Positions 3,849 to 24,029 of a DNA stretch of 59,115 bases are shown one piece after another (the stretch's first letter is position 1; each line of letters begins with the position of its first letter). Source of the DNA: Bacteroidota bacterium (GTDB lineage Bacteria; Bacteroidota; Bacteroidia; JABEUT01); NCBI GenBank assembly GCA_013289475.1, contig JABCZW010000009.1:1-59115 (forward strand), written 5' to 3'. The notes beneath the pieces are model-generated. The model made no database searches, was not told where the DNA came from, and saw only the letters and a list, made by a program, of their open reading frames with translations. The position numbers and the translations under genes were made by a program.

Positions 3849-4910
3849 TTACGCCGCGTCTTTCACAGACTTACCACCAGCCTGCTTTTCCTTTATATAA
3901 GGCAAATAATACTTTTCGTAAAAAACTTGTTTAGAATTGTTGAAGGATTTTATGCCGCCAAGCATGTTCAGCAGGTAAACGTAGCACCATGCCAGATCTA
4001 CCTGGTGAGGTAAAAAACCTGCACGGGCACTGTTAGGGAAAAGGTGGTGGTTGTTGTGCCATTCGCCTGCTACATAGCCCGGCCAGTATTGATTAATGGA
4101 CATATCATCCCAGCAAAAGTCTACACCTTCCTGGCGCTTGTCCTTACCCTTACCATGCCCTTCGAAATTAAATGTACGCACGCCTACCGCCCACAAAACT
4201 GCCCAGCCAAATATGGTACAGGCCAGCGCATTGCCACCAATAAGGTAAAATGTTCCGTACCAAAATACCCAGTTAAGCAAGGTAGATGTTATAGTGCGGA
4301 AAGGGTTAGCAATAGTTCCCCATTTCTGATATTGTTCGTAGGTATTAGGGGTTACGCCTGTATGGTCAATAAATACTTTAATACGTTCGTAATCTTCCCT
4401 ACTCAGGTTTTTTGCAATGCTCTGGTGATTGGTGTCAGCTAAAAAGCAATACAGGAAACCACAATTGGCATTGTACGGGTCACCCGGCTGGTCCGATTTA
4501 CCATGGTGAACGTGGTGAGAAACAATATACATCTCTTCGGGTATAACCTTTATGACAAGGTTTTGGGTAATGAAGCGCCAGAATTTATTTTTAAAACTAT
4601 ATGCCCTGTGTGTGCCGTATCGATGATACCAAATGGTACCGTGGCTGCCCATAATAACCATACTATATATGAATCCTACAAGGCAAAGCCACCAGCTAAA
4701 ATATTTCACAAAAAACAGTACCAGGAACGGAGTCAGGCATATTACCCAAAACCAACCCAGGAAATTCATCCAGTTCTTTTTGGTTCGGAAAATATTCTGA
4801 CGGTAAAAGAATTCTTTAAGGATTTGCCTGTTGGTAGGCTTAATAAGGTTTCCATTTTCGTCTTGCCATCCGTAGCCGGGTGGCTCCAGAACTATGTCGA
4901 TAAATGCCAT
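3849..4910 (-). CDS. Acyl-CoA / fatty acid delta-9-type desaturase
   Basis: 353 residues, an integral-membrane di-iron desaturase that would introduce a cis double bond into acyl chains. All three histidine boxes are present: HRYGTH at 96-101, HHVHH at 132-136 and HNNHH near residue 285. Hydrophobic hairpins lie before the first box and between boxes two and three. The layout is that of stearoyl-CoA desaturases rather than of the sphingolipid enzyme at 13.9 kb. It is convergent to the YwqK-repeat gene and has the cleanest promoter of the window upstream. An electron donor (cytochrome b5 or ferredoxin reductase) is not encoded next to it. Confidence 0.88.
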   Translation of the reverse strand: MAFIDIVLEPPGYGWQDENGNLIKPTNRQILKEFFYRQNIFRTKKNWMNFLGWFWVICLTPFLVLFFVKYFSWWLCLVGFIYSMVIMGSHGTIWYHRYGTHRAYSFKNKFWRFITQNLVIKVIPEEMYIVSHHVHHGKSDQPGDPYNANCGFLYCFLADTNHQSIAKNLSREDYERIKVFIDHTGVTPNTYEQYQKWGTIANPFRTITSTLLNWVFWYGTFYLIGGNALACTIFGWAVLWAVGVRTFNFEGHGKGKDKRQEGVDFCWDDMSINQYWPGYVAGEWHNNHHLFPNSARAGFLPHQVDLAWCYVYLLNMLGGIKSFNNSKQVFYEKYYLPYIKEKQAGGKSVKDAA

Positions 4911-13761: not shown

Positions 13762-13840
13762 TAAATAAATAGTGCTTTTACGCTAAAGCAGTGAGAAATC
13801 TCACAAATTCCCTCAAAAACAGCTGTTTTTTTATAAAGCG

Positions 13841-13848
13841 TATCTTTG
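13841..13848 (+). promoter_or_regulatory. -7 box of the sphingolipid-type desaturase
   Basis: TATCTTTG, a perfect TAnnTTTG, 17 bp before the ATG at 13866. It lies inside the longest open frame (GTG at 13791), which rules that upstream start out. Confidence 0.6.
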
Positions 13849-13865: not shown

Positions 13866-14837
13866 ATGACTAAAAAAACGGACTTCTTCTATACCAACGA
13901 AAAGGATATTCACTTTATCCGCCCAATTGAAATAATCAAGGAGCATCCTGAGGTTAGGGAGCTTATTGGCAGGAATCCTTATACCATTTTTGCTATCATA
14001 GGCCTTATATCAATTCATGCCGGCCTGGCCTATCTTTCTTACAGGCTTAATTTATGGTGGATGGTATTTGTATTGGCTTATTTCGGAGGCGCATTCTTAG
14101 TGCATGCGTTATTTGTAATGGTTCACGAGTGTTCGCACAACCTGTTGTTCCAGAAGAAACAAAACAACATGCTTGCCGGTATATTGGCAAACACCGTTAT
14201 GTTCTTCCCCAGTTCAGTATCATTCCAGCGTTATCACTTAAAGCACCATGCTCACCAGGGCATACCTGAATATGATGGCGATCTTCCATCGGAATGGGAA
14301 GCGAAGCTTTTCAACAGCAGTTTCTTCGGTAAAGCAATCTGGTTACTTATATATCCTATTGTTCAAACCTTACGTATACCCCGTTTACGGGATATAAAAC
14401 CTTTCGACAAATGGGTTGCACTTAACCTTATTGTCGTAATTGGTGTTGATGTGGCAGCATGGTATTTCTTCGGCCCTATGGCTTTTGTTTACCTGTTCGC
14501 TTCTATGTTCTTCTCGGTGGGTCTTCACCCATTGGGTGCTCGTTGGGTACAAGAGCATTACTTAACCAGCGACGATGTACAGGAAACCCATAGCTATTAT
14601 GGCCCATTAAACACTATAGCTTTTAACGTAGGCTATCATAACGAACATCACGATTTTCCTTCCATTCCCTGGAACAACTTACCAAAAGTGCGTAAGGCAG
14701 GGGCTAAATGGTACAATGCTATTGCATATCATAACTCCTGGACCTTGCTCTGGATTCGTTTTCTCTTCGACAAGAACATTTCAATATACTCCCGTATGTT
14801 GCGTAAGAGGCACGATAAACCTGTAAAGCAATCGTAA
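13866..14837 (+). CDS. Sphingolipid delta-4 desaturase-like (DEGS/DES1 family) membrane desaturase
   Basis: 323 residues. The N-terminus (FFYTNEKDIHFIRPIEIIK ... HPEVRELIGRNP) matches the pattern of the short Lipid_DES domain of eukaryotic dihydroceramide delta-4 desaturases, in which a YTD/YTN motif is followed by KYPEIKxLxxxDP. The three histidine boxes are HECSH (87-91), HLKHHAH (124-130) and HNEHH (258-262). Around the last box, SYYGPLN and FNVGYHNEHHDFPSIP are almost the wording I recall for human DEGS1, and SLGLHP/SVGLHP and the C-terminal SxYSRM also agree. In eukaryotes the enzyme makes the 4,5-trans double bond of ceramide. Many Bacteroidota make dihydroceramides, so a lipid substrate of that class is likely, but it is inferred. 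gpsA starts four bases after the stop, and a methyltransferase and thioesterase follow. Confidence 0.85.
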   Translation: MTKKTDFFYTNEKDIHFIRPIEIIKEHPEVRELIGRNPYTIFAIIGLISIHAGLAYLSYRLNLWWMVFVLAYFGGAFLVHALFVMVHECSHNLLFQKKQNNMLAGILANTVMFFPSSVSFQRYHLKHHAHQGIPEYDGDLPSEWEAKLFNSSFFGKAIWLLIYPIVQTLRIPRLRDIKPFDKWVALNLIVVIGVDVAAWYFFGPMAFVYLFASMFFSVGLHPLGARWVQEHYLTSDDVQETHSYYGPLNTIAFNVGYHNEHHDFPSIPWNNLPKVRKAGAKWYNAIAYHNSWTLLWIRFLFDKNISIYSRMLRKRHDKPVKQS

Positions 14838-14841
14838 AGGA

Positions 14842-15837
14842 ATGGCGGAAAATAAAATAGCCATACTCGGAGCCGGTAGCTGGGCTACTGCTTTAGTCAA
14901 GATACTTTCTAATAATGACCTGCAGATCAACTGGTGGGTAAGGAAGAAGGATAATATTGAGTACATTAAAAAGTACAAGCACAATCCCACCTATTTAACC
15001 GAAATTGAAATTGACCTGAGCAAAGTAACCATGCACACTGGTTTAAGGGAAACCGTTGCTACTGCGGACAGACTTATAATGGCAGTACCATCGGCGTTTA
15101 TGAGTGAAGCATTTGCAGGATTAAAGAAAGAAGATTTAAAAGGCAAAACAATATTTTCTGCTGTAAAAGGAACATTGCCCGATAAAAAGATGATGGTAAG
15201 TGGTTACCTGAATGAACAGTTTGGTGTATCTATTTCCTCAATTGGTATAATTGCCGGCCCATGCCATGCGGAAGAGGTAGCGATGGAAAAATTATCGTAC
15301 CTGACTGTCGGTTGTGCTAATGTAAACGAAGCAGACTGGATGGCGGAGATGCTTACATGCCGTTATATTAAAGCCGGTACTTCACCCGATATGCAGGGCA
15401 TAGAATATGCTGCTGCACTAAAAAATATTTTTGCAATCGCAAGTGGTATTTGCCACGGACTTGGTTACGGAGATAACTTCCAGGCGGTGCTTGTTGCCAA
15501 TGCCATACAGGAAATAAAACGGTTTATTGACCATATTAATCCTGTTCAAAGAGATACCAATGCATCTGCGTATTTAGGAGATTTGTTGGTAACAGCGTAT
15601 TCACAGTTCAGCCGTAACCGCACATTGGGTAGTATGGTGGGTAAAGGCTATTCGGTAAAATATGCGCAGTTAGAAATGAACATGGTGGCAGAAGGATATT
15701 ACGCTGTTAAAACTATCTATAACATTAACCAGGAGCAGAAAGTTGATATGCCTATAACCGAAGCAGTATATCGTATATTATACGAACAAATGTCGCCGGC
15801 AGTAGAGATCCGTTTACTTGCCTCAAAGCTTGCCTGA
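14842..15837 (+). CDS. gpsA: NAD(P)-dependent glycerol-3-phosphate dehydrogenase
   Basis: 331 residues, cytoplasmic, makes sn-glycerol-3-phosphate from DHAP for phospholipid synthesis. The Rossmann motif ILGAGSWATAL is at the N-terminus, FSAVKGTLPD and IIAGPCHAEEVA are in the middle, and the catalytic lysine region is EYAAALKNIFAIASG. GDLLVTAYSQFSRNRTLG is the conserved C-terminal substrate-domain motif. The gene starts four bases after the sphingolipid-type desaturase stop and shares one base with the next ATG (TGATG), so desaturase, gpsA and methyltransferase form one transcription unit. Confidence 0.93.
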   Translation: MAENKIAILGAGSWATALVKILSNNDLQINWWVRKKDNIEYIKKYKHNPTYLTEIEIDLSKVTMHTGLRETVATADRLIMAVPSAFMSEAFAGLKKEDLKGKTIFSAVKGTLPDKKMMVSGYLNEQFGVSISSIGIIAGPCHAEEVAMEKLSYLTVGCANVNEADWMAEMLTCRYIKAGTSPDMQGIEYAAALKNIFAIASGICHGLGYGDNFQAVLVANAIQEIKRFIDHINPVQRDTNASAYLGDLLVTAYSQFSRNRTLGSMVGKGYSVKYAQLEMNMVAEGYYAVKTIYNINQEQKVDMPITEAVYRILYEQMSPAVEIRLLASKLA

Positions 15838-16727
15838 TGGAAACCCTTACTAATTGTCCTGTTTGTAACTCTTCGTCTTTCACTCCTTTTGTGGAGTGCA
15901 CCGATTATACCGTTAGTAAGGATAAATTTAAAATAGTGCAATGCACCTGTGGTTTTAGGTTTACCAACCCAAGGCCCGAAGAAGCCGAAGCCGGAAAATA
16001 TTACCAGTCTGAAGATTATATATCACATTCTAATACCAAGAAGGGAATTGTCAATAGCCTTTACCAGGTTGCACGTAAATTTACCCTGAAGCGTAAATTA
16101 AAGCTTGTTACTAAAGTAAGCGGTAAACAAAGTGGCGATTTACTTGACTTGGGTTGTGGCACAGGTGAGTTTTTAAATACCTGTAAAGAAAATGGCTGGA
16201 ATGTGCAGGGGATAGAACCTTCGCCCGATGCGCGCGCTTTTGCATCAAAACAATATGGATTAACGGTTCACGAAGTAAATAAGTGGGACCAGTTCAATGA
16301 TAAATTATTTGATGTGGTTAGCGCATGGCATGTATTAGAACACGTGTATCAATTGGAAGAAACTGCAAAACAGGTTAAAAGAATTTTAAAACCTGATGGT
16401 ACATTTATTGTTGCATTACCAAATTGCAGTTCTGCCGATGCCGATTTTTACAAGCAATTTTGGGCAGCGTATGATGTACCCCGCCACATATGGCATTTTA
16501 CGCCTGCCGATGTAAAAAGATTCTTTGAAAAGCAAGGATTTTTATTGAAAGAAGTATTACCTATGTCATTGGATGCCTATTATATATGTATGCTGAGTGA
16601 AAAGTATAAGGGCGGTAATATCAATTATGGAAGGGCTGCCATACATGGCTGGGCATCGAACAGCCAGGCAGCTAAAACAGGCACTACTTTCTCGAGCCAG
16701 ATATATATACTTAAGCCTGTCGCATAA
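15837..16727 (+). CDS. Class I SAM-dependent methyltransferase with N-terminal zinc-ribbon-like segment
   Basis: 296 residues. The N-terminus has CPVCNSSSF and, about 25 residues later, QCTCGFRF, a possible Cys4 metal site. Methyltransferase motif I is DLLDLGCGTGEFL (about 100-112), followed by GIEPSPDARAFA as the SAM acidic loop and VVSAWHVLEHV as post-motif I, the Methyltransf_23 arrangement. The substrate is unknown; proteins of this design often act on lipids or polysaccharides, and overlap with gpsA by one base fits a membrane-lipid or envelope role. Confidence 0.8.
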   Translation: METLTNCPVCNSSSFTPFVECTDYTVSKDKFKIVQCTCGFRFTNPRPEEAEAGKYYQSEDYISHSNTKKGIVNSLYQVARKFTLKRKLKLVTKVSGKQSGDLLDLGCGTGEFLNTCKENGWNVQGIEPSPDARAFASKQYGLTVHEVNKWDQFNDKLFDVVSAWHVLEHVYQLEETAKQVKRILKPDGTFIVALPNCSSADADFYKQFWAAYDVPRHIWHFTPADVKRFFEKQGFLLKEVLPMSLDAYYICMLSEKYKGGNINYGRAAIHGWASNSQAAKTGTTFSSQIYILKPVA

Positions 16728-16769: not shown

Positions 16770-17291
16770 ATGAAAAGTAAAACACCAAAAGAAAGTTACG
16801 CAATATCAACTCACTTAGTACTGCCAAACGAAACCAATTTGCTTGGAAACCTTATGGGTGGCAGGTTATTGCATTGGATGGATATTACTGCAGCCATTGC
16901 AGCACACCGCCATTCCCAGCGTGTGGTGGTTACCGCTTCGGTTAACCACGTATCGTTCGAGCGTGCTATTCGTTTAGGTGATTATGTAACTATAGAAGCT
17001 AAAGTATCCAGGGCTTTCAATACATCTATGGAAGTATTTATAGATGTAACCGTGGAAACTGGCTTTACCGGTGAAAGGATAAAATCAAACGATGCTACTT
17101 ATGTATTTGTTGCTGTTGACCAGGTTGGTAAACCAATTGAAATACCTCAGTTGACACCTGAAACCGATTTGGAGAAAGAGCGCTATAATACCGCTTTGCA
17201 AAGAAGGCAACTGAGTCTTTTATTGTCGGGTAAATTAAGCCCCGATGATGCACCTGAACTTAGGGAGCTTTTTATGGGTAAGAAAAAATAA
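16770..17291 (+). CDS. Acyl-CoA thioesterase (hotdog fold, YciA/BFIT-like)
   Basis: 173 residues, cytoplasmic hydrolase of acyl-CoA thioesters. The single hotdog domain begins with the family motif LPNETNLLGNLMGGRLLHWMD, here with the usual asparagine and the aspartate that serves as catalytic acid. SVNHVSFERAIRLGDYV is the second conserved strand. The C-terminal 40 residues are charged and helical, typical of the Acot/YciA branch. The cobalamin adenosyltransferase gene starts three bases after its stop. Confidence 0.85.
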   Translation: MKSKTPKESYAISTHLVLPNETNLLGNLMGGRLLHWMDITAAIAAHRHSQRVVVTASVNHVSFERAIRLGDYVTIEAKVSRAFNTSMEVFIDVTVETGFTGERIKSNDATYVFVAVDQVGKPIEIPQLTPETDLEKERYNTALQRRQLSLLLSGKLSPDDAPELRELFMGKKK

Positions 17292-17294
17292 AAC

Positions 17295-17855
17295 ATGGCA
17301 CTTAAGATATATACGAAGACCGGCGACAAGGGACAAACCTCTCTATTAGGCGGAACACGTGTACGTAAGCATCACATGCGTATTGAAGCATACGGTACAG
17401 TTGATGAGCTTAATTCCTGGATCGGCCTTTTGCGCGATTCAGTTACCGATGAGCATACCAAAACAATTTTGGTTGAAGTGCAGGACAGGCTTTTTACCAT
17501 GGGCTCTTCACTGGCATCTGATCCGGTAAAATCGAAAGTTAAAATACCACACTTAAGCGAAGCTGATATAACAGTTTTTGAAAAAGAGATTGATGCCATG
17601 GATGCGCAACTGCCACCCATGAAGAACTTTGTACTGCCCGGCGGACATATAACTGTATCTCACTGCCATATTACACGTTGTGTTTGCCGCAGGGCTGAGC
17701 GCAGGGTGATTCACTTAGCTGAAAACGAACCGGTAGATGAATTAGTTATAAAATACCTTAACCGCCTTTCTGACTATTTATTTATGCTTGCCCGCAAACT
17801 CACACAAGATCTAAAGGCCACCGAAGTTCCATGGAAGCCTAAAATGGGCGAATAG
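17295..17855 (+). CDS. Cob(I)alamin adenosyltransferase, PduO/MMAB type
   Basis: 186 residues. It transfers the 5'-deoxyadenosyl group of ATP to cob(I)alamin to make adenosylcobalamin. The N-terminal ATP loop KIYTKTGDKGQTSLLGG is diagnostic; GTVDELNSWIGLLRD and the helix CRRAERRVIHLA followed by LNRLSDYLFMLAR carry the conserved active-site arginines and aspartate. Adenosylcobalamin is the cofactor of the IcmF mutase at 43-46 kb, which is the likely client. It sits three bases behind the thioesterase and 14 bases before ppx. Confidence 0.93.
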   Translation: MALKIYTKTGDKGQTSLLGGTRVRKHHMRIEAYGTVDELNSWIGLLRDSVTDEHTKTILVEVQDRLFTMGSSLASDPVKSKVKIPHLSEADITVFEKEIDAMDAQLPPMKNFVLPGGHITVSHCHITRCVCRRAERRVIHLAENEPVDELVIKYLNRLSDYLFMLARKLTQDLKATEVPWKPKMGE

Positions 17856-17869
17856 ATTCTTTAATTCGT

Positions 17870-18790
17870 ATGCCGCATATTGCAATCCTCGACCTTGGCA
17901 CGAACACTTTTAACCTGCTGATAGCAGAAAAAGGCAAGGATGGCAACCCCGTATTTATCTATTCAAAAGAACTGCCTGTTGAGATTGGTAAAGGAGGAAT
18001 ACACAAAGCATATATAACACCTGAAGCAACCGAGAGGGCCGTAAATGCTTTGCACATACACAACAAGACAATTGCCGAACACAATATAAAAGATGTGTAT
18101 GCTTTTGCTACATCAGCGGTGCGTGGAGCAGAAAATAAAAAAGAGTTTACAGAAAGAATTAAGAACGAAACAGGAATAGATATACATATATTATCGGGGG
18201 AAGAAGAAGCTCAATGGATATATGAAGGTGTTAAGCATGCATCGGTATTAGGCGACCACGTGTCAGTAATAATGGATATTGGCGGAGGAAGTACGGAATT
18301 TATTATTGCCAATAACAAAGAGATGCTTTGGAAGAAGAGTTACCAATTAGGTGTAACGAGGTTATATGAAATGTTTAACCGCACCGATAAATTATTGGAG
18401 AAACAATCGGAAGTAGAGAAACATATTACGGACTTAATTCCGGACTTAATTGAAGCAGGCAAGAAGTATAAACCCATTGAATTGATTGGTTCTTCGGGTT
18501 CGTTTGAGAGTTTTGCGCAAATACTTCTGACACGTGCTGGTAGCAATATTAAACCTGATAATGGGTATAACTTCTCAATGAATGAATTTGATAAGCTGTA
18601 TAGCGAGTTAATGGAGTCTACTTTGGAAGAACGATTGCAAATACCCGGACTTATTAAAATGCGTGCACATATGTTTGCTTACTCGGGCATACTTACCAAA
18701 TTAGTGTTGACTAAGCTTGGTATTGAAAAAATGAAATTATCTCACTATGCCCTGAAAGAAGGTATTGCAGGGCACTTGTTAAATAAATAA
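17870..18790 (+). CDS. Ppx/GppA family phosphatase (exopolyphosphatase)
   Basis: 306 residues, a compact Ppx/GppA protein with the ASKHA actin-like fold. AILDLGTNTFNLLIAEK is phosphate loop 1, FATSAVRGAENK the middle motif and IMDIGGGSTEFII phosphate loop 2. It lacks the extra C-terminal domains of E. coli Ppx, as is usual in this phylum. It removes terminal phosphate from polyphosphate and/or pppGpp; which of the two cannot be decided here. Convergent with the heme ATPase gene, six bases away. Confidence 0.88.
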   Translation: MPHIAILDLGTNTFNLLIAEKGKDGNPVFIYSKELPVEIGKGGIHKAYITPEATERAVNALHIHNKTIAEHNIKDVYAFATSAVRGAENKKEFTERIKNETGIDIHILSGEEEAQWIYEGVKHASVLGDHVSVIMDIGGGSTEFIIANNKEMLWKKSYQLGVTRLYEMFNRTDKLLEKQSEVEKHITDLIPDLIEAGKKYKPIELIGSSGSFESFAQILLTRAGSNIKPDNGYNFSMNEFDKLYSELMESTLEERLQIPGLIKMRAHMFAYSGILTKLVLTKLGIEKMKLSHYALKEGIAGHLLNK

Positions 18791-18796
18791 TAGAAG

Positions 18797-19576
18797 CTAT
18801 TCCACTACAAAATGCGGAAATGATGAGCCGGGGTCCTTTATCACTCTGCATTTCAACCCATATACTTTAAATAGATTATCTGCAGTTATTACCTCACTCG
18901 GAGGGCCATTGGCAATAACGCTACCATTGTTTATTAATAATACTGAGTCGGCATATTGTAACGCGAGGTTAATGTCATGTATTACCGCAACCGTAACTGT
19001 GTTTTGTTTTGCTATCTCTTTTGTTATTCTTAAGAATTCATGCTGATAGTTAAGATCGAGGGAGGCTATGGGCTCATCTAATAAAAAATATCTGTACTTA
19101 TCCTTAGGTTGTTCCCATATTTGCGACATTACTCTTGCAAAGTGTACACGCTGTTTTTCACCGCCTGAAAGAGTCAGGTAATTCCGTTCTGAAAAATCTG
19201 CCATGTTCATTCTTTTTAATGCCTGCTTGCATATATCCATGTCTTTTGCCGCTGGCTTGAAATCGAAATGCGGATACCTGCCCATCATTACCACCTCCTC
19301 TACTGATAAAGGAAAGGATAACTCAGATTCCTGAGATAGTACAGCCCTTACTTTTGAAATAGTACGCTTGTCTTTTTTAGTCAGCAATATTTTATCATAA
19401 CGTACGCTGCCATAATATTTATTTATCTCGTTACTTATTATTTTCAAAAGAGTTGATTTTCCTGAACCGTTAGGGCCAATTATCATAGCCAGCTTACCGG
19501 GCTCGAATGATACTGAAACATTGTTGAGTATCTTTTGTTTCCCGATACTATAGCTTATGTCTTTTACCTCAAGCAT
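18797..19576 (-). CDS. hmuV: Heme/iron-siderophore ABC transporter ATP-binding protein
   Basis: 259 residues. Walker A is GPNGSGKST, the signature is LSGGEKQRVHFAR and Walker B is YFLLDEPIASLD, followed by the switch histidine in VIHDIN. The close match to HmuV is the HFARVM stretch after the signature. It powers the permease encoded just upstream, with which it overlaps by eight bases. Last gene of the receptor-lipoprotein-permease-ATPase run. Confidence 0.87.
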   Translation of the reverse strand: MLEVKDISYSIGKQKILNNVSVSFEPGKLAMIIGPNGSGKSTLLKIISNEINKYYGSVRYDKILLTKKDKRTISKVRAVLSQESELSFPLSVEEVVMMGRYPHFDFKPAAKDMDICKQALKRMNMADFSERNYLTLSGGEKQRVHFARVMSQIWEQPKDKYRYFLLDEPIASLDLNYQHEFLRITKEIAKQNTVTVAVIHDINLALQYADSVLLINNGSVIANGPPSEVITADNLFKVYGLKCRVIKDPGSSFPHFVVE

Positions 19577-20639
19577 AGTAGCCTCCTTTTCCGTGTATTC
19601 CTTTTTGCCTCCTTAATATCCAGATAAATACGGGTGCTCCTACAAATGATGTTACAATACCAATAGGCAATTCAGCAGGAGCAATTATAACCCGCGAAAC
19701 CATATCAGCTACATTCATAATTATAGCACCTACCAGTGCTGAACCAATAATCAAAAAGCGGTTATCAGAACCTTTTATCATACGTAACAGGTGAGGAACG
19801 ATAAGCCCAACAAAACCTATTACACCTACTGCAGATGTACCCACTGCAACAATAAGAGTATTCAATATAATTATTTTCGTCTTTAGCTTCTCTGTGTCTA
19901 TGCCCAGGTATCCTGCCTCCGATTCACCTAGTAATAAAGCATTTAAAGCTTTAGAATAGCGAAGGACGAAAAATATCGATGGTATAGTAACCACGTAAAC
20001 CAAGCAAACGGAGTTCCAGTTAGCGCCCGAGAATGTGCCTAAATTCCAAAATGTGATTGACCTTGCCTGTGGGTCTCTCGCTATATAAGAAAGGAACCCG
20101 GTGCAACTTGCGGCTATGGCATTTATAGCTACACCTACCAATATCATAACAGTAACCGTTACTTTACCGAATGATGATGAAAGCTTATAAACCAGCATTG
20201 TTGCAATAAACGAAAAGGTAAATGCTGAAAGTGGAAGTATCATTGTTCCCAACAAAGTGCTGTATTGTGCAAAAAAACTTTTACCAACTACAAATATTAG
20301 GGCTGCTCCGAAAGCGGCACCCGAAGATGTACCTATTAACCCCGGCTCAACAATTGGGTTACGGAAAAGTCCCTGCATTAATGCACCAGAAACAGAAAGC
20401 CCCGCGCCTATAATCACGCAGAGTAATACACGTGGCAAGCGTATGTACATAAATAGGCCCTCCTGTATGCGTTCTACTTGCCCTTCCGGGTGTAAGCCCA
20501 TTGCTTTAGCAAGGCTTATAAATATTTCTCTGTATGTAATGCTTACTGCACCGGTGCGTATTGCAAGCGACATAGTAATAACCAGCAATATGCTGAATAA
20601 TAAGTAGAGAGTACTGTATTTGAGGCGCGAAATCTTCAC
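19569..20639 (-). CDS. hmuU: FecCD-family iron/heme ABC transporter permease
   Basis: 356 residues, about ten membrane helices. Family motifs visible are RLPRVLLCVIIGAGLSVSGA, LMQGLFRNPIVEPGLIGTSS near residues 85-115, and GVIGFVGLIVPHLLRM near the C-terminus (the ATPase coupling region). The gene starts one base before the end of the binding-protein gene (20640) and overlaps the ATPase gene, so translation is probably coupled. Confidence 0.88.
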   Translation of the reverse strand: MKISRLKYSTLYLLFSILLVITMSLAIRTGAVSITYREIFISLAKAMGLHPEGQVERIQEGLFMYIRLPRVLLCVIIGAGLSVSGALMQGLFRNPIVEPGLIGTSSGAAFGAALIFVVGKSFFAQYSTLLGTMILPLSAFTFSFIATMLVYKLSSSFGKVTVTVMILVGVAINAIAASCTGFLSYIARDPQARSITFWNLGTFSGANWNSVCLVYVVTIPSIFFVLRYSKALNALLLGESEAGYLGIDTEKLKTKIIILNTLIVAVGTSAVGVIGFVGLIVPHLLRMIKGSDNRFLIIGSALVGAIIMNVADMVSRVIIAPAELPIGIVTSFVGAPVFIWILRRQKGIHGKGGYYA

Positions 20640-21539
20640 CTATTTCTTGTGAATTAGCTCCATCAGTTTCAGAATATTTTCTCCTGTGCGGGGCCCCAAG
20701 TACAGTAGGTCATGCTCTTCAAACCTGTATATATGGTCATCTTTTGCAGCAGGCGATAAAGCTATGCCAGGTAATTCTTTGAACTTCTCTAATCCTCCGA
20801 GCCTGTCGAACCCGAAATCAGTTGCTATAATTACCTGTGGCTGAAATTTTGCAATCACTTCAGCGCTCAGCATCCTGAATTTTGTGGCTGTGTCAACTGC
20901 ATTTACGCCACCCGCCTGCTGAATCATAAAATTGGCTGCACCCCATGGTCCAAATGGAAAATAGACATTATTCGCCCTGCCAAAATGAACTATCATTACT
21001 GTTGGTGCATCGGTATATTGTTTTCTTTTTTCTTCCACCAGTTTCATATCCGCATCAAGCTTATTGCACAATGAATCGGCTTTTTTGGGCACATTAAAAT
21101 ATACTCCAAGGTCTTTTATCAATGCCTTAGTATCTTCAATGCTCTCCGCACTACGGAATTGTGTTACAGTTATACCAACTTGTTTTAATTGTGGCAGTAC
21201 ATTATCGGGACCAATGGCATTATCGGCGCCACCGTTATAAAAAACGGCTGTTGGCTTTAATGAAATAATGCCTTCTGCACTTAACATGCGGTGGTAACCA
21301 ACGGTGGTAATTTTTTTTGTTTCAGGCGGATAGGTGCTTGAAAGGTCAACACCAACAATTTTATCACCTTGACCTAAAGCAAATAAAAGCTCAGTGAGTT
21401 GTTTTGACACGCAAACAATGCGTACAGTATCTTTTTTAGTTGTTTCGCTCCCTTTGCTTCCAAAACGGTCGCAGGAAGAGAAAAGCAAAGTGGTTGAGAG
21501 TAAGCCAAGAATAGTTGTGTTAAGAATGGAAATCTTCAT
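20640..21539 (-). CDS. hmuT: Heme/iron ABC transporter substrate-binding lipoprotein
   Basis: 299 residues from the ATG at 21539. The N-terminus MKISILNTTILGLLSTTLLFSSC is a lipoprotein signal with the cysteine at residue 23. The periplasmic-binding fold of the TroA/BtuF superfamily follows (VSKQLTELLFALGQGDKIVGVD; QPQVIIATDFG). HmuT-like features include the conserved YHRMLSAEGIISLKP stretch. An upstream in-frame ATG at 21590 lies inside the intergenic hairpin arm and would put 17 residues before the signal peptide, so it was rejected. It delivers heme or iron chelate to the permease. Confidence 0.85.
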   Translation of the reverse strand: MKISILNTTILGLLSTTLLFSSCDRFGSKGSETTKKDTVRIVCVSKQLTELLFALGQGDKIVGVDLSSTYPPETKKITTVGYHRMLSAEGIISLKPTAVFYNGGADNAIGPDNVLPQLKQVGITVTQFRSAESIEDTKALIKDLGVYFNVPKKADSLCNKLDADMKLVEEKRKQYTDAPTVMIVHFGRANNVYFPFGPWGAANFMIQQAGGVNAVDTATKFRMLSAEVIAKFQPQVIIATDFGFDRLGGLEKFKELPGIALSPAAKDDHIYRFEEHDLLYLGPRTGENILKLMELIHKK

Positions 21540-21558
21540 AAAAATCAATTTTATTAAA

Positions 21559-21592
21559 CTTTGCGGGGGAGCTTCAGGCTCCCCCGACAAAG
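21559..21592 (-). terminator. GC-rich hairpin between the TonB receptor and hmuT
   Basis: CGGGGGAGC (21564-21572), TTCAG loop, GCTCCCCCG (21578-21586) is a perfect 9-bp GC stem. CTTTG/CAAAG extends it with one bulged A. Reading the minus strand it lies 17 bp after the receptor stop. A rich-in-T but interrupted stretch follows, so partial termination, setting the ratio of receptor to transporter mRNA, is more likely than a full stop. Confidence 0.65.
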
Positions 21593-21608
21593 AATAATCG
21601 TTAAAATA

Positions 21609-24029
21609 CTAGAACGTGTACTTAAGTGTTAAACCACCGTAATATGTTGATAAAAAAGGAGCAGGCAAAATATAACCATCTCCACTACCACCATCAGGTG
21701 TTTGCGCCAATGACTTAATATTAGCACCATAGAACAGGAAAGTGTAGTATGTGCTGTTTGTTAAGTTATCTGCCCCAACAAAAGCATCTACGCTAAAATG
21801 AGTGCCAATCTTCTTCATATATCCAATTTTTGCGCCAAGTAGGCTATATGCTTCTGCTGAACTTCCATTGTCGAAAGTAACGGGGACTTTATCAACGTAT
21901 TGGAACTTTACATTAACATAAAAACCGGCTTTGGTTGCAAAATCAATCCCTAAGTTGAAGACATTAGGCGCTACACCAACAGCTTTATTGCCTGAATAAT
22001 CATTCAGTACGGTATCGCCACCTGATTTACTTGCTCCGTAAACTTTAAAGTCTACATACTTAAAGTTTGAATAAGTATAACTGATCCAAGGGCGTAACAT
22101 GGTAATTGCACCGTCTTTATTATTAATAGCATTAAAAGCCAAATAAAGTTCGGCGCCAATATTGCGTTGCTCCCCTGCATTTGTATAAAAGGATATTCCA
22201 TTGTTATTTTCCTGTATCAACCTGTTGGTTATATCCATATCGAACAATGCCAACTGGTATGAAAGTTTGTGATTCATTACTGTACCCTTAGTGCCTATTT
22301 CATATTGCATGGCGCTTTCAGGTTTCAATGCTGAATCTACTTTCCCTAGTGAGTTTGTCATTTCACTTATCAATGCTGGTGAATAACCTTCGCTTACACT
22401 TGCATATACCGAAACATTATCACTAAATACTTTTATAACAGACGCACTTGGTGTAAATACCGGCGCAAATGGTTTTGTAAACTGAGGGTAGTTCAGGTAA
22501 ACGCCATTCGAAGTAAATGGAAGAAACCCGGGGTTACCCGTATATTGCGAGAAGGCCGAGGTATAATAATTCTGTGTGCCAAATTCCTGGAAGTTAAGAC
22601 TGCCACCTAAAGTAAAGGTAATTTGTGAAGGCAGTTTAAAATTCCAATTGGTAAATATGGCATAATTCATAGCATAGTTCTGCGCATCCGATGGAATCAT
22701 GCCTCCTGTGCTGCTGGTAAAAGGAGAGTTTGCTATGAATGGAAGAATAAAGTCGCCTTGTATCATCTGGTTTGTTTTCTCAAATGAAAAACCTAGGGTA
22801 CCATCCACTGTAAGTTTATCGCTAACATTTTCATACATAAAGGCAGTTCTTCCGCCAAAACTCAGGTTTATATCCTTGGTAAACCCGTGTGCAAAAGGTT
22901 GGTTTAAGGTATTGCTTGTTGTAAATAAAGTACTTTGGTTACTAAACCCTTTGCAGAACTGAAACTTATCAGTAACACCTGCACGGAAACTCTCAATTTC
23001 TACCATTGAGGTATTAAGCGCGTAAAAGGAATTGTTAACCGAATCAATGTTACGTTTATAGAATGCTGCGCTGTCTATTTCACCTGCTAAATGTTCAACA
23101 GAATGGCTATAAGAAATAAATGTTGAAACGCTTTGTTTGCTGCTTGGTTTGAACTGCCCTGCGAAAGTTATAAAATCCTTCAGAGAGTTATCATTCATTC
23201 TGAAACCTCCATAGGTTTGGTGGCCGTAATTAATATAGATACCTGAATTTGTGCCGGCAACATTTATTGTTGTATTAGTACGAAATAAGCCATAGCTTCC
23301 GCCTATTGCCTGTTCCTGAATACTGGTTTCGTTAACAACAGGAGTATATAAATTTACTGCCCCTGCTATGTAGCTACCGTATAACGGAGTTGGCCCTTTA
23401 TATATTTCTACTTTACCTAAAGTGCTGAAATCTATATCATCCATTACGGTCATGCCTGTGGCATCGGTCACCGGAATGTTATCTATATACATTTGGTAAC
23501 CCAAGCCGTTAAAGTTCATGCTTAGCCCTACATTCGGTATATACCCGCGAATGGTAATACGTTGCCCTCCCCATTGTGTGCGTGCCTGCATATCGACTCC
23601 CGGAACATCATTCAAAGCATCCTGTAGCTTTAAGCCTGAAGTTCGGTTTAAATCGGCCTGGGTTAGGGTATTAACTGTTTGGGCCTTTTTTATTCCTAAT
23701 ACCTGGGCTTCACTAAGTTCATTACTCGATACTTTGAGCATTACGGTAATGGATTGTGATTTATCGCCAACAGCAATTGTTTGTGCAGCATAACCTATGC
23801 TTGTTATACTTATGCTGTCAAAATTAGCTGGGCTTTGCAAGGTAAACATACCCTGTGCATCGGCGCTGGTTGCAATAGTTGTATGTGGTACCGATACTGC
23901 AGCACCAGGAATGGGTTGGCTGGTTTCATTGTCTTTTACCGTGCCCTTTACTGTATACTGGGCATTGGCAAATTGCAATGATATAATAAGTGCGGCCGAA
24001 GCCGATAAAATTCGTTTTATTGTTTTCAT
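21609..24029 (-). CDS. TonB-dependent outer-membrane receptor (heme/iron type by context)
   Basis: 806 residues. The signal peptide (MKTIKRILSASAALIISLQFANAQ) is followed by a CarboxypepD_reg beta-sandwich (about 27-110, VKGTVKDNETSQPIPGAAV), a plug domain (about 120-230, LQDALNDVPGVDMQAR ... GGQRITIRGYIPN) and a 22-strand barrel ending in LTLKYTF. It would move a large chelate across the outer membrane using TonB energy. The ABC genes that follow on the same strand make heme or a siderophore the probable ligand. It is preceded by an imperfect inverted repeat and by one of two paralogous membrane proteins. Confidence 0.9.
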   Translation of the reverse strand: MKTIKRILSASAALIISLQFANAQYTVKGTVKDNETSQPIPGAAVSVPHTTIATSADAQGMFTLQSPANFDSISITSIGYAAQTIAVGDKSQSITVMLKVSSNELSEAQVLGIKKAQTVNTLTQADLNRTSGLKLQDALNDVPGVDMQARTQWGGQRITIRGYIPNVGLSMNFNGLGYQMYIDNIPVTDATGMTVMDDIDFSTLGKVEIYKGPTPLYGSYIAGAVNLYTPVVNETSIQEQAIGGSYGLFRTNTTINVAGTNSGIYINYGHQTYGGFRMNDNSLKDFITFAGQFKPSSKQSVSTFISYSHSVEHLAGEIDSAAFYKRNIDSVNNSFYALNTSMVEIESFRAGVTDKFQFCKGFSNQSTLFTTSNTLNQPFAHGFTKDINLSFGGRTAFMYENVSDKLTVDGTLGFSFEKTNQMIQGDFILPFIANSPFTSSTGGMIPSDAQNYAMNYAIFTNWNFKLPSQITFTLGGSLNFQEFGTQNYYTSAFSQYTGNPGFLPFTSNGVYLNYPQFTKPFAPVFTPSASVIKVFSDNVSVYASVSEGYSPALISEMTNSLGKVDSALKPESAMQYEIGTKGTVMNHKLSYQLALFDMDITNRLIQENNNGISFYTNAGEQRNIGAELYLAFNAINNKDGAITMLRPWISYTYSNFKYVDFKVYGASKSGGDTVLNDYSGNKAVGVAPNVFNLGIDFATKAGFYVNVKFQYVDKVPVTFDNGSSAEAYSLLGAKIGYMKKIGTHFSVDAFVGADNLTNSTYYTFLFYGANIKSLAQTPDGGSGDGYILPAPFLSTYYGGLTLKYTF

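Follow-up and report, generated by a model that had tools for sequence, protein, structure and literature searches.

A bacterial member of the sphingolipid delta-4 desaturase family in a Bacteroidota genus, with sulfonolipids as its possible substrates

The window, by which we mean the whole 59,115-nucleotide stretch of Bacteroidota DNA that was analysed, carries at positions 13866-14837 of the forward strand a gene for a 323-residue membrane desaturase. Its membership of the DEGS (sphingolipid delta-4 desaturase) family is strongly supported by sequence profiles, by its histidine boxes and by its place in a phylogenetic tree. The same genome encodes SulA, and we put at roughly one in two the probability that the desaturase acts at C4-C5 of N-acylcapnine and yields a delta-4 unsaturated sulfonolipid, a reading in which we infer the chemistry, the position of the bond and the substrate. 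The delta-4 double bond is what separates ceramide from dihydroceramide, and forming it is a key step of sphingolipid signalling in animals. Most descriptions of bacterial sphingolipids are of saturated ones. The source organism is a soil bacterium, and its desaturase is closely related to the enzyme by which animals finish ceramide.

The open reading frame was found where it had been predicted, with an ATG at 13866, a stop codon that ends at 14837 and a product that begins MTKKTD. The longest open frame reaches back to a GTG at 13791. A Bacteroidota-type -7 promoter element, TATCTTTG, is located at 13841-13848 on the forward strand, 25 bp upstream of the ATG, and the same element stands between -22 and -27 at nine of the ten genus loci, the tenth having TATATTTG at -37; the background frequency is 0.39 per kb on the same strand. 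Because TATCTTTG sits 3' of the GTG and recurs across the genus loci, the start at 13866 is supported, and the gene is probably transcribed from a promoter of its own and begins there rather than at GTG 13791.

Both Pfam domains expected of a DEGS protein are present: Lipid_DES (PF08557) at residues 4-39, with 37.1 bits against a cut-off of 23 (E 2e-9), and FA_desaturase (PF00487) at residues 64-278, with 104.8 bits (E 9e-30), also above its cut-off. A chance match is excluded, since PF08557 matched none of 14 control genomes. The motifs quoted in the original prediction were all recovered, the three histidine boxes included. On the forward strand these are HECSH (residues 87-91, 14124-14138; H87 and H91 invariant), HLKHH (residues 124-128, 14235-14249; H124, H127 and H128 invariant), SYYGPLN (residues 243-249, 14592-14612; S243, Y244, Y245, G246 and N249 invariant) and HNEHH (residues 258-262, 14637-14651; H258, H261 and H262 invariant), to which are added FNVGYHNEHHDFPSIP and YSRM. 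None of the eight box histidines varies across 30 relatives, nor do SYYG and NEHHDF. The AlphaFold2 model of the protein has a pLDDT of 82, and Foldseek relates it to known catalytic folds among solved structures (stearoyl-CoA desaturase, probability 0.97; AlkB, 0.99); a search of solved structures by sequence gave no match to the protein. The NCBIfam near-matches CrtW, DesA, GntB and CrtR all fell far under their own cut-offs.

Eukaryotic DEGS1/DES1 has the same PF08557 plus PF00487 architecture and, in the human protein, the same length of 323 residues, with the Lipid_DES domain at the N-terminus, and its HExxH, HxxHH and HNEHH boxes are found in the window protein along with SYYGPLN and NEHHDF. 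Human DEGS1 aligns with the window protein over its full length at 37% identity (E 1e-68); the Pfam assignment is independent of this comparison. The two differ in that the window protein lacks an N-terminal Met-Gly, the myristoylation site, which is a trait of DEGS1 and does not define the family, and in that the genus of the window protein mostly lacks serine palmitoyltransferase (SPT). The membrane acyl-lipid and acyl-CoA desaturases of Bacteroidota have the PF00487 fold and di-iron histidine boxes in common with it but no PF08557 domain. The window itself encodes a second protein with an FA_desaturase domain, at 4032-4697 on the reverse strand (a 353-aa open frame, 47 bits), without Lipid_DES.

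The phylogeny that the original prediction called for included bacterial relatives, DEGS of human and fly, and five desaturases as outgroups. Four of these split off; the remaining one, a 222-aa fragment, has a very long branch and was misplaced. The outgroups are too distant to place the root, so the tree is silent on the direction of any transfer between bacteria and eukaryotes. Whether or not outgroups are included, the window protein falls in a fully supported clade of its genus, within a large bacterial DEGS-like family, and very long branches separate the DEGS-like proteins from the ordinary desaturases that these genomes also encode. The prediction of a bacterial DEGS homologue is therefore upheld by the two Pfam domains, the three histidine boxes and the position of the protein with DEGS and away from ordinary desaturases; an ordinary fatty-acid desaturase is ruled out by PF08557, the motifs and the tree. 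The animal sequences group, with 100/100 support, with four proteins from another class of the phylum, and this subclade nearest animal DEGS excludes the window protein. Class-level relatives of family code f51 (L014-L018) group with human and fly DEGS at 100/100; L014 has 49% identity to human DEGS1, and G227, one of the genomes concerned, holds two kinds of condensing enzyme, one of SulA type (Lys281) and one of SPT type (Ala281).

PF08557 was found in all 11 genomes of the genus that were examined, with one match per genome, and in 41 of 392 sampled Bacteroidota genomes (about 10%). Scanning GTDB genomes with a sequence pattern confirmed at least 580 loci; the best 80 of these all belong to Bacteroidota and include Mucilaginibacter, Chitinophaga, Puia, Ferruginibacter and Olivibacter. 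Viral contigs gave no relative. The desaturase is thus a regular and widespread bacterial branch, neither an orphan nor unusual for Bacteroidota. The bacterial family is apparently unstudied, and in our search of open-licence full text no paper turned up that describes a DEGS enzyme from bacteria or a sulfonolipid desaturase.

The desaturase is the first gene of a gpsA operon whose gene order is conserved within the genus only. The gap AGGA separates its stop codon from the ATG of gpsA (glycerol-3-phosphate dehydrogenase by Pfam/NCBIfam; 14842-15837, forward strand), in agreement with the four bases originally noted. In an order kept in the genus, a class I SAM methyltransferase gene (15837-16727, forward) and a 4HBT-family acyl-CoA thioesterase gene (16770-17291, forward) come next, and further operon genes, named by eye, encode a cobalamin adenosyltransferase and Ppx/GppA. 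The earlier description of a lipid-like operon holds insofar as the desaturase leads gpsA; it is weakened by the remaining genes, those for the methyltransferase, thioesterase, cobalamin adenosyltransferase and Ppx/GppA. Outside the genus, gpsA does not recur beside the desaturase in the 80 loci compared from named genomes, and none of these loci has a condensing enzyme near the desaturase. In one congener, G007, SulA and the desaturase share a contig and lie 9.4 kb apart, the single case of such linkage; within 12 kb this region (L209:4275-15911, G007:C180) holds SulA, sulfate-activation genes resembling cysN and cysD (named by eye) and the DEGS-like gene. In the window, the stretch 17295-24029 begins with the cobalamin adenosyltransferase-like gene and continues past ppx with an ABC ATPase, a permease, a binding protein and a TonB-dependent receptor (named by eye), a set that looks like B12 or iron-siderophore uptake.

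Which long-chain base the genus makes was read from its condensing enzymes. The alpha-oxoamine synthases of ordinary size in the window genome and in the congener G002 (98% complete) are Kbl, BioF and one third enzyme. The congener copy of the third enzyme scores 614 bits with A. finegoldii SulA (7u7h), 578 with CFAT (28eh) and 248 with SPT (3a2b), and the window genome's SulA is 84% identical to it. When aligned with A. finegoldii SulA, the proteins of the window genome, G002 and G007 have Lys281, where genuine SPTs have Ala; Lys281 is reported as the residue that separates SulA from SPT, and SulA as the enzyme that joins cysteate and acyl-ACP into 3-ketocapnine (PMC9304779). Judged by sequence, the third condensing enzyme of the genus is the cysteate acyl-ACP transferase, SulA/CFAT. 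It is present in 8 of 11 genus genomes, the remaining three being 60-68% complete.

We counted a protein as SPT at 640 bits or more on NF047600 with Ala at position 281. The SulA copies of the genus reach 284-316 bits on this model, have Lys281 where the position was read and fall outside that definition. No SPT over the cut-off was found in the near-complete congeners G002 (98%), G006 (96%) and G007 (99%), all of which carry the desaturase, or in the window's own genome, which is 57% complete; in G007 the condensing family consists of SulA and BioF only. The sole SPT over the cut-off in the genus (665 bits, G010:C242:807-1991) comes from G010, which is 84% complete; that assembly has 340 contigs and 2% contamination, and its SPT may be real or a stray contig. 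An archaeal-type cysteate synthase (TIGR03844) was looked for and not found; other routes to cysteate are reported for Bacteroidota (PMC10191378). In the sulfonolipid (capnine) pathway of SulA/CFAT/CapB and CapC/KCR, the genus SulA with Lys281 is the component identified, and the genus differs from the pathway as published in its desaturase, none being described there (PMC9304779, PMC11211663, PMC10191378). A separate 816-aa protein in G002 (L196:3433-5880, G002:C80), encoded 3' of ppx on the desaturase contig, fuses an alpha-oxoamine synthase to a GNAT-like C-terminal part, where Acetyltransf_6 scores just under its cut-off; the fusion occurs in 6 of 11 genus genomes, may combine a condensing enzyme with an N-acyltransferase, and might make another sphingoid base.

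In the reaction we propose, a di-iron membrane enzyme with eight conserved box histidines would, by homology, use O2 and reducing power. The di-iron centre would activate O2 and take hydrogen from C4 and then from C5, beside the C3 hydroxyl, and the family's known relatives suggest that a 4,5 double bond would form on the long-chain base. In the genus this base is most likely capnine, made via SulA/CFAT, the enzyme that commits cells to capnine and to sulfonolipids, which correspond to dihydroceramide with a sulfonate. Desaturation would then give a delta-4 unsaturated sulfonolipid, the sulfur analogue of ceramide. A possible lead is the halocapnine of Salinibacter ruber, in which a double bond adjoins a hydroxyl group. 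Capnine and sphinganine have the C2-C5 part in common and differ at C1, which bears a sulfonate in capnine in place of the hydroxyl (PMC3463246, PMC5591296).

If the enzyme were instead a true dihydroceramide delta-4 desaturase, it would make delta-4 unsaturated ceramides from SPT-derived bases, as membership of the DEGS family and the SPT of congener G010 would allow. Within the class, the desaturase is indeed commoner in SPT-positive genomes (8/18) than in the others (6/86; Fisher p 3e-4, kinship ignored), five of the eight SPT-positive carriers belonging to one genus. Carriers in sister classes lack SulA and have an SPT-like enzyme, which has Ala281, scores about 480-490 bits with the SPT model and matches SPT best among solved structures. 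Against this, the desaturase carriers G002, G006 and G007 lack an SPT over the cut-off, six sampled members of the class have desaturase and SulA with no SPT, and among SPT-positive class genomes the desaturase occurs in 8 of 11 with SulA and in 0 of 7 without it (p 0.004, kinship ignored). Anaerobic lineages, unable to use an O2-dependent enzyme, may confound these class statistics. Co-occurrence with SulA was itself dropped as evidence: nearly every genome of the class has SulA (97 of 104 sampled), so that its association with the desaturase does not discriminate (Fisher p 0.59). For this genus we consider a ceramide substrate unlikely, and on the sequence evidence less likely than a sulfonolipid one. 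Since the near-complete congeners have SulA/CFAT and no SPT over the cut-off, the delta-4 ceramides of the original prediction give way to its fallback, a related lipid, for which a sulfonolipid is the better fit.

A different chemistry or a different class of lipid is also conceivable, namely hydroxylation of the long-chain base at C4 or C5, or desaturation of ordinary acyl-lipids or N-acyl amino-acid lipids. The DEGS fold supports both desaturation and hydroxylation, since DEGS2 is named as a desaturase/C4-monooxygenase (PMC13161914), and RIF-1 has a 5-hydroxyl on its capnine base (PMC3463246); the desaturase is also in one operon with gpsA, a glycerophospholipid gene. That linkage, however, is limited to the genus, the protein has kept Lipid_DES at its N-terminus as well as SYYGPLN and NEHHDF, and the same genomes hold separate ordinary desaturases without a PF08557 match. 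We regard such an outcome as rather improbable.

The genus seems to make sulfonolipids rather than ceramide, and the desaturase therefore probably acts on sulfonolipids. The sister-class carriers with SPT-like enzymes and no SulA rule out a dependence of the whole family on SulA, and because of them the substrate probably varies from one lineage to another. It is simplest to suppose a single desaturase family that acts on whichever base a lineage produces, which in this genus points to the sulfonolipid. More tentatively, we suggest that the DEGS-family enzyme desaturates the capnine base and that, across Bacteroidota, it serves ceramide or sulfonolipid according to the presence of SPT or SulA.

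With hundreds of loci across Bacteroidota, the bacterial DEGS relatives point to unsaturated bacterial ceramides or sulfonolipids, which may have escaped notice in lipidomics. Choanoflagellates develop in response to sulfonolipids (PMC3463246), and gliding motility requires these lipids (PMC10191378); an extra double bond could therefore alter signalling or membrane behaviour. Because animal DEGS groups with one bacterial subclade, it becomes possible to test where the animal step came from. Carriers exist in culture (Mucilaginibacter, Chitinophaga, Puia, Ferruginibacter and Olivibacter), Chitinophaga rupis DSM 21039, Ferruginibacter paludis CECT 8366 and Puia dinghuensis being among those with the desaturase, and the case can be tested directly.
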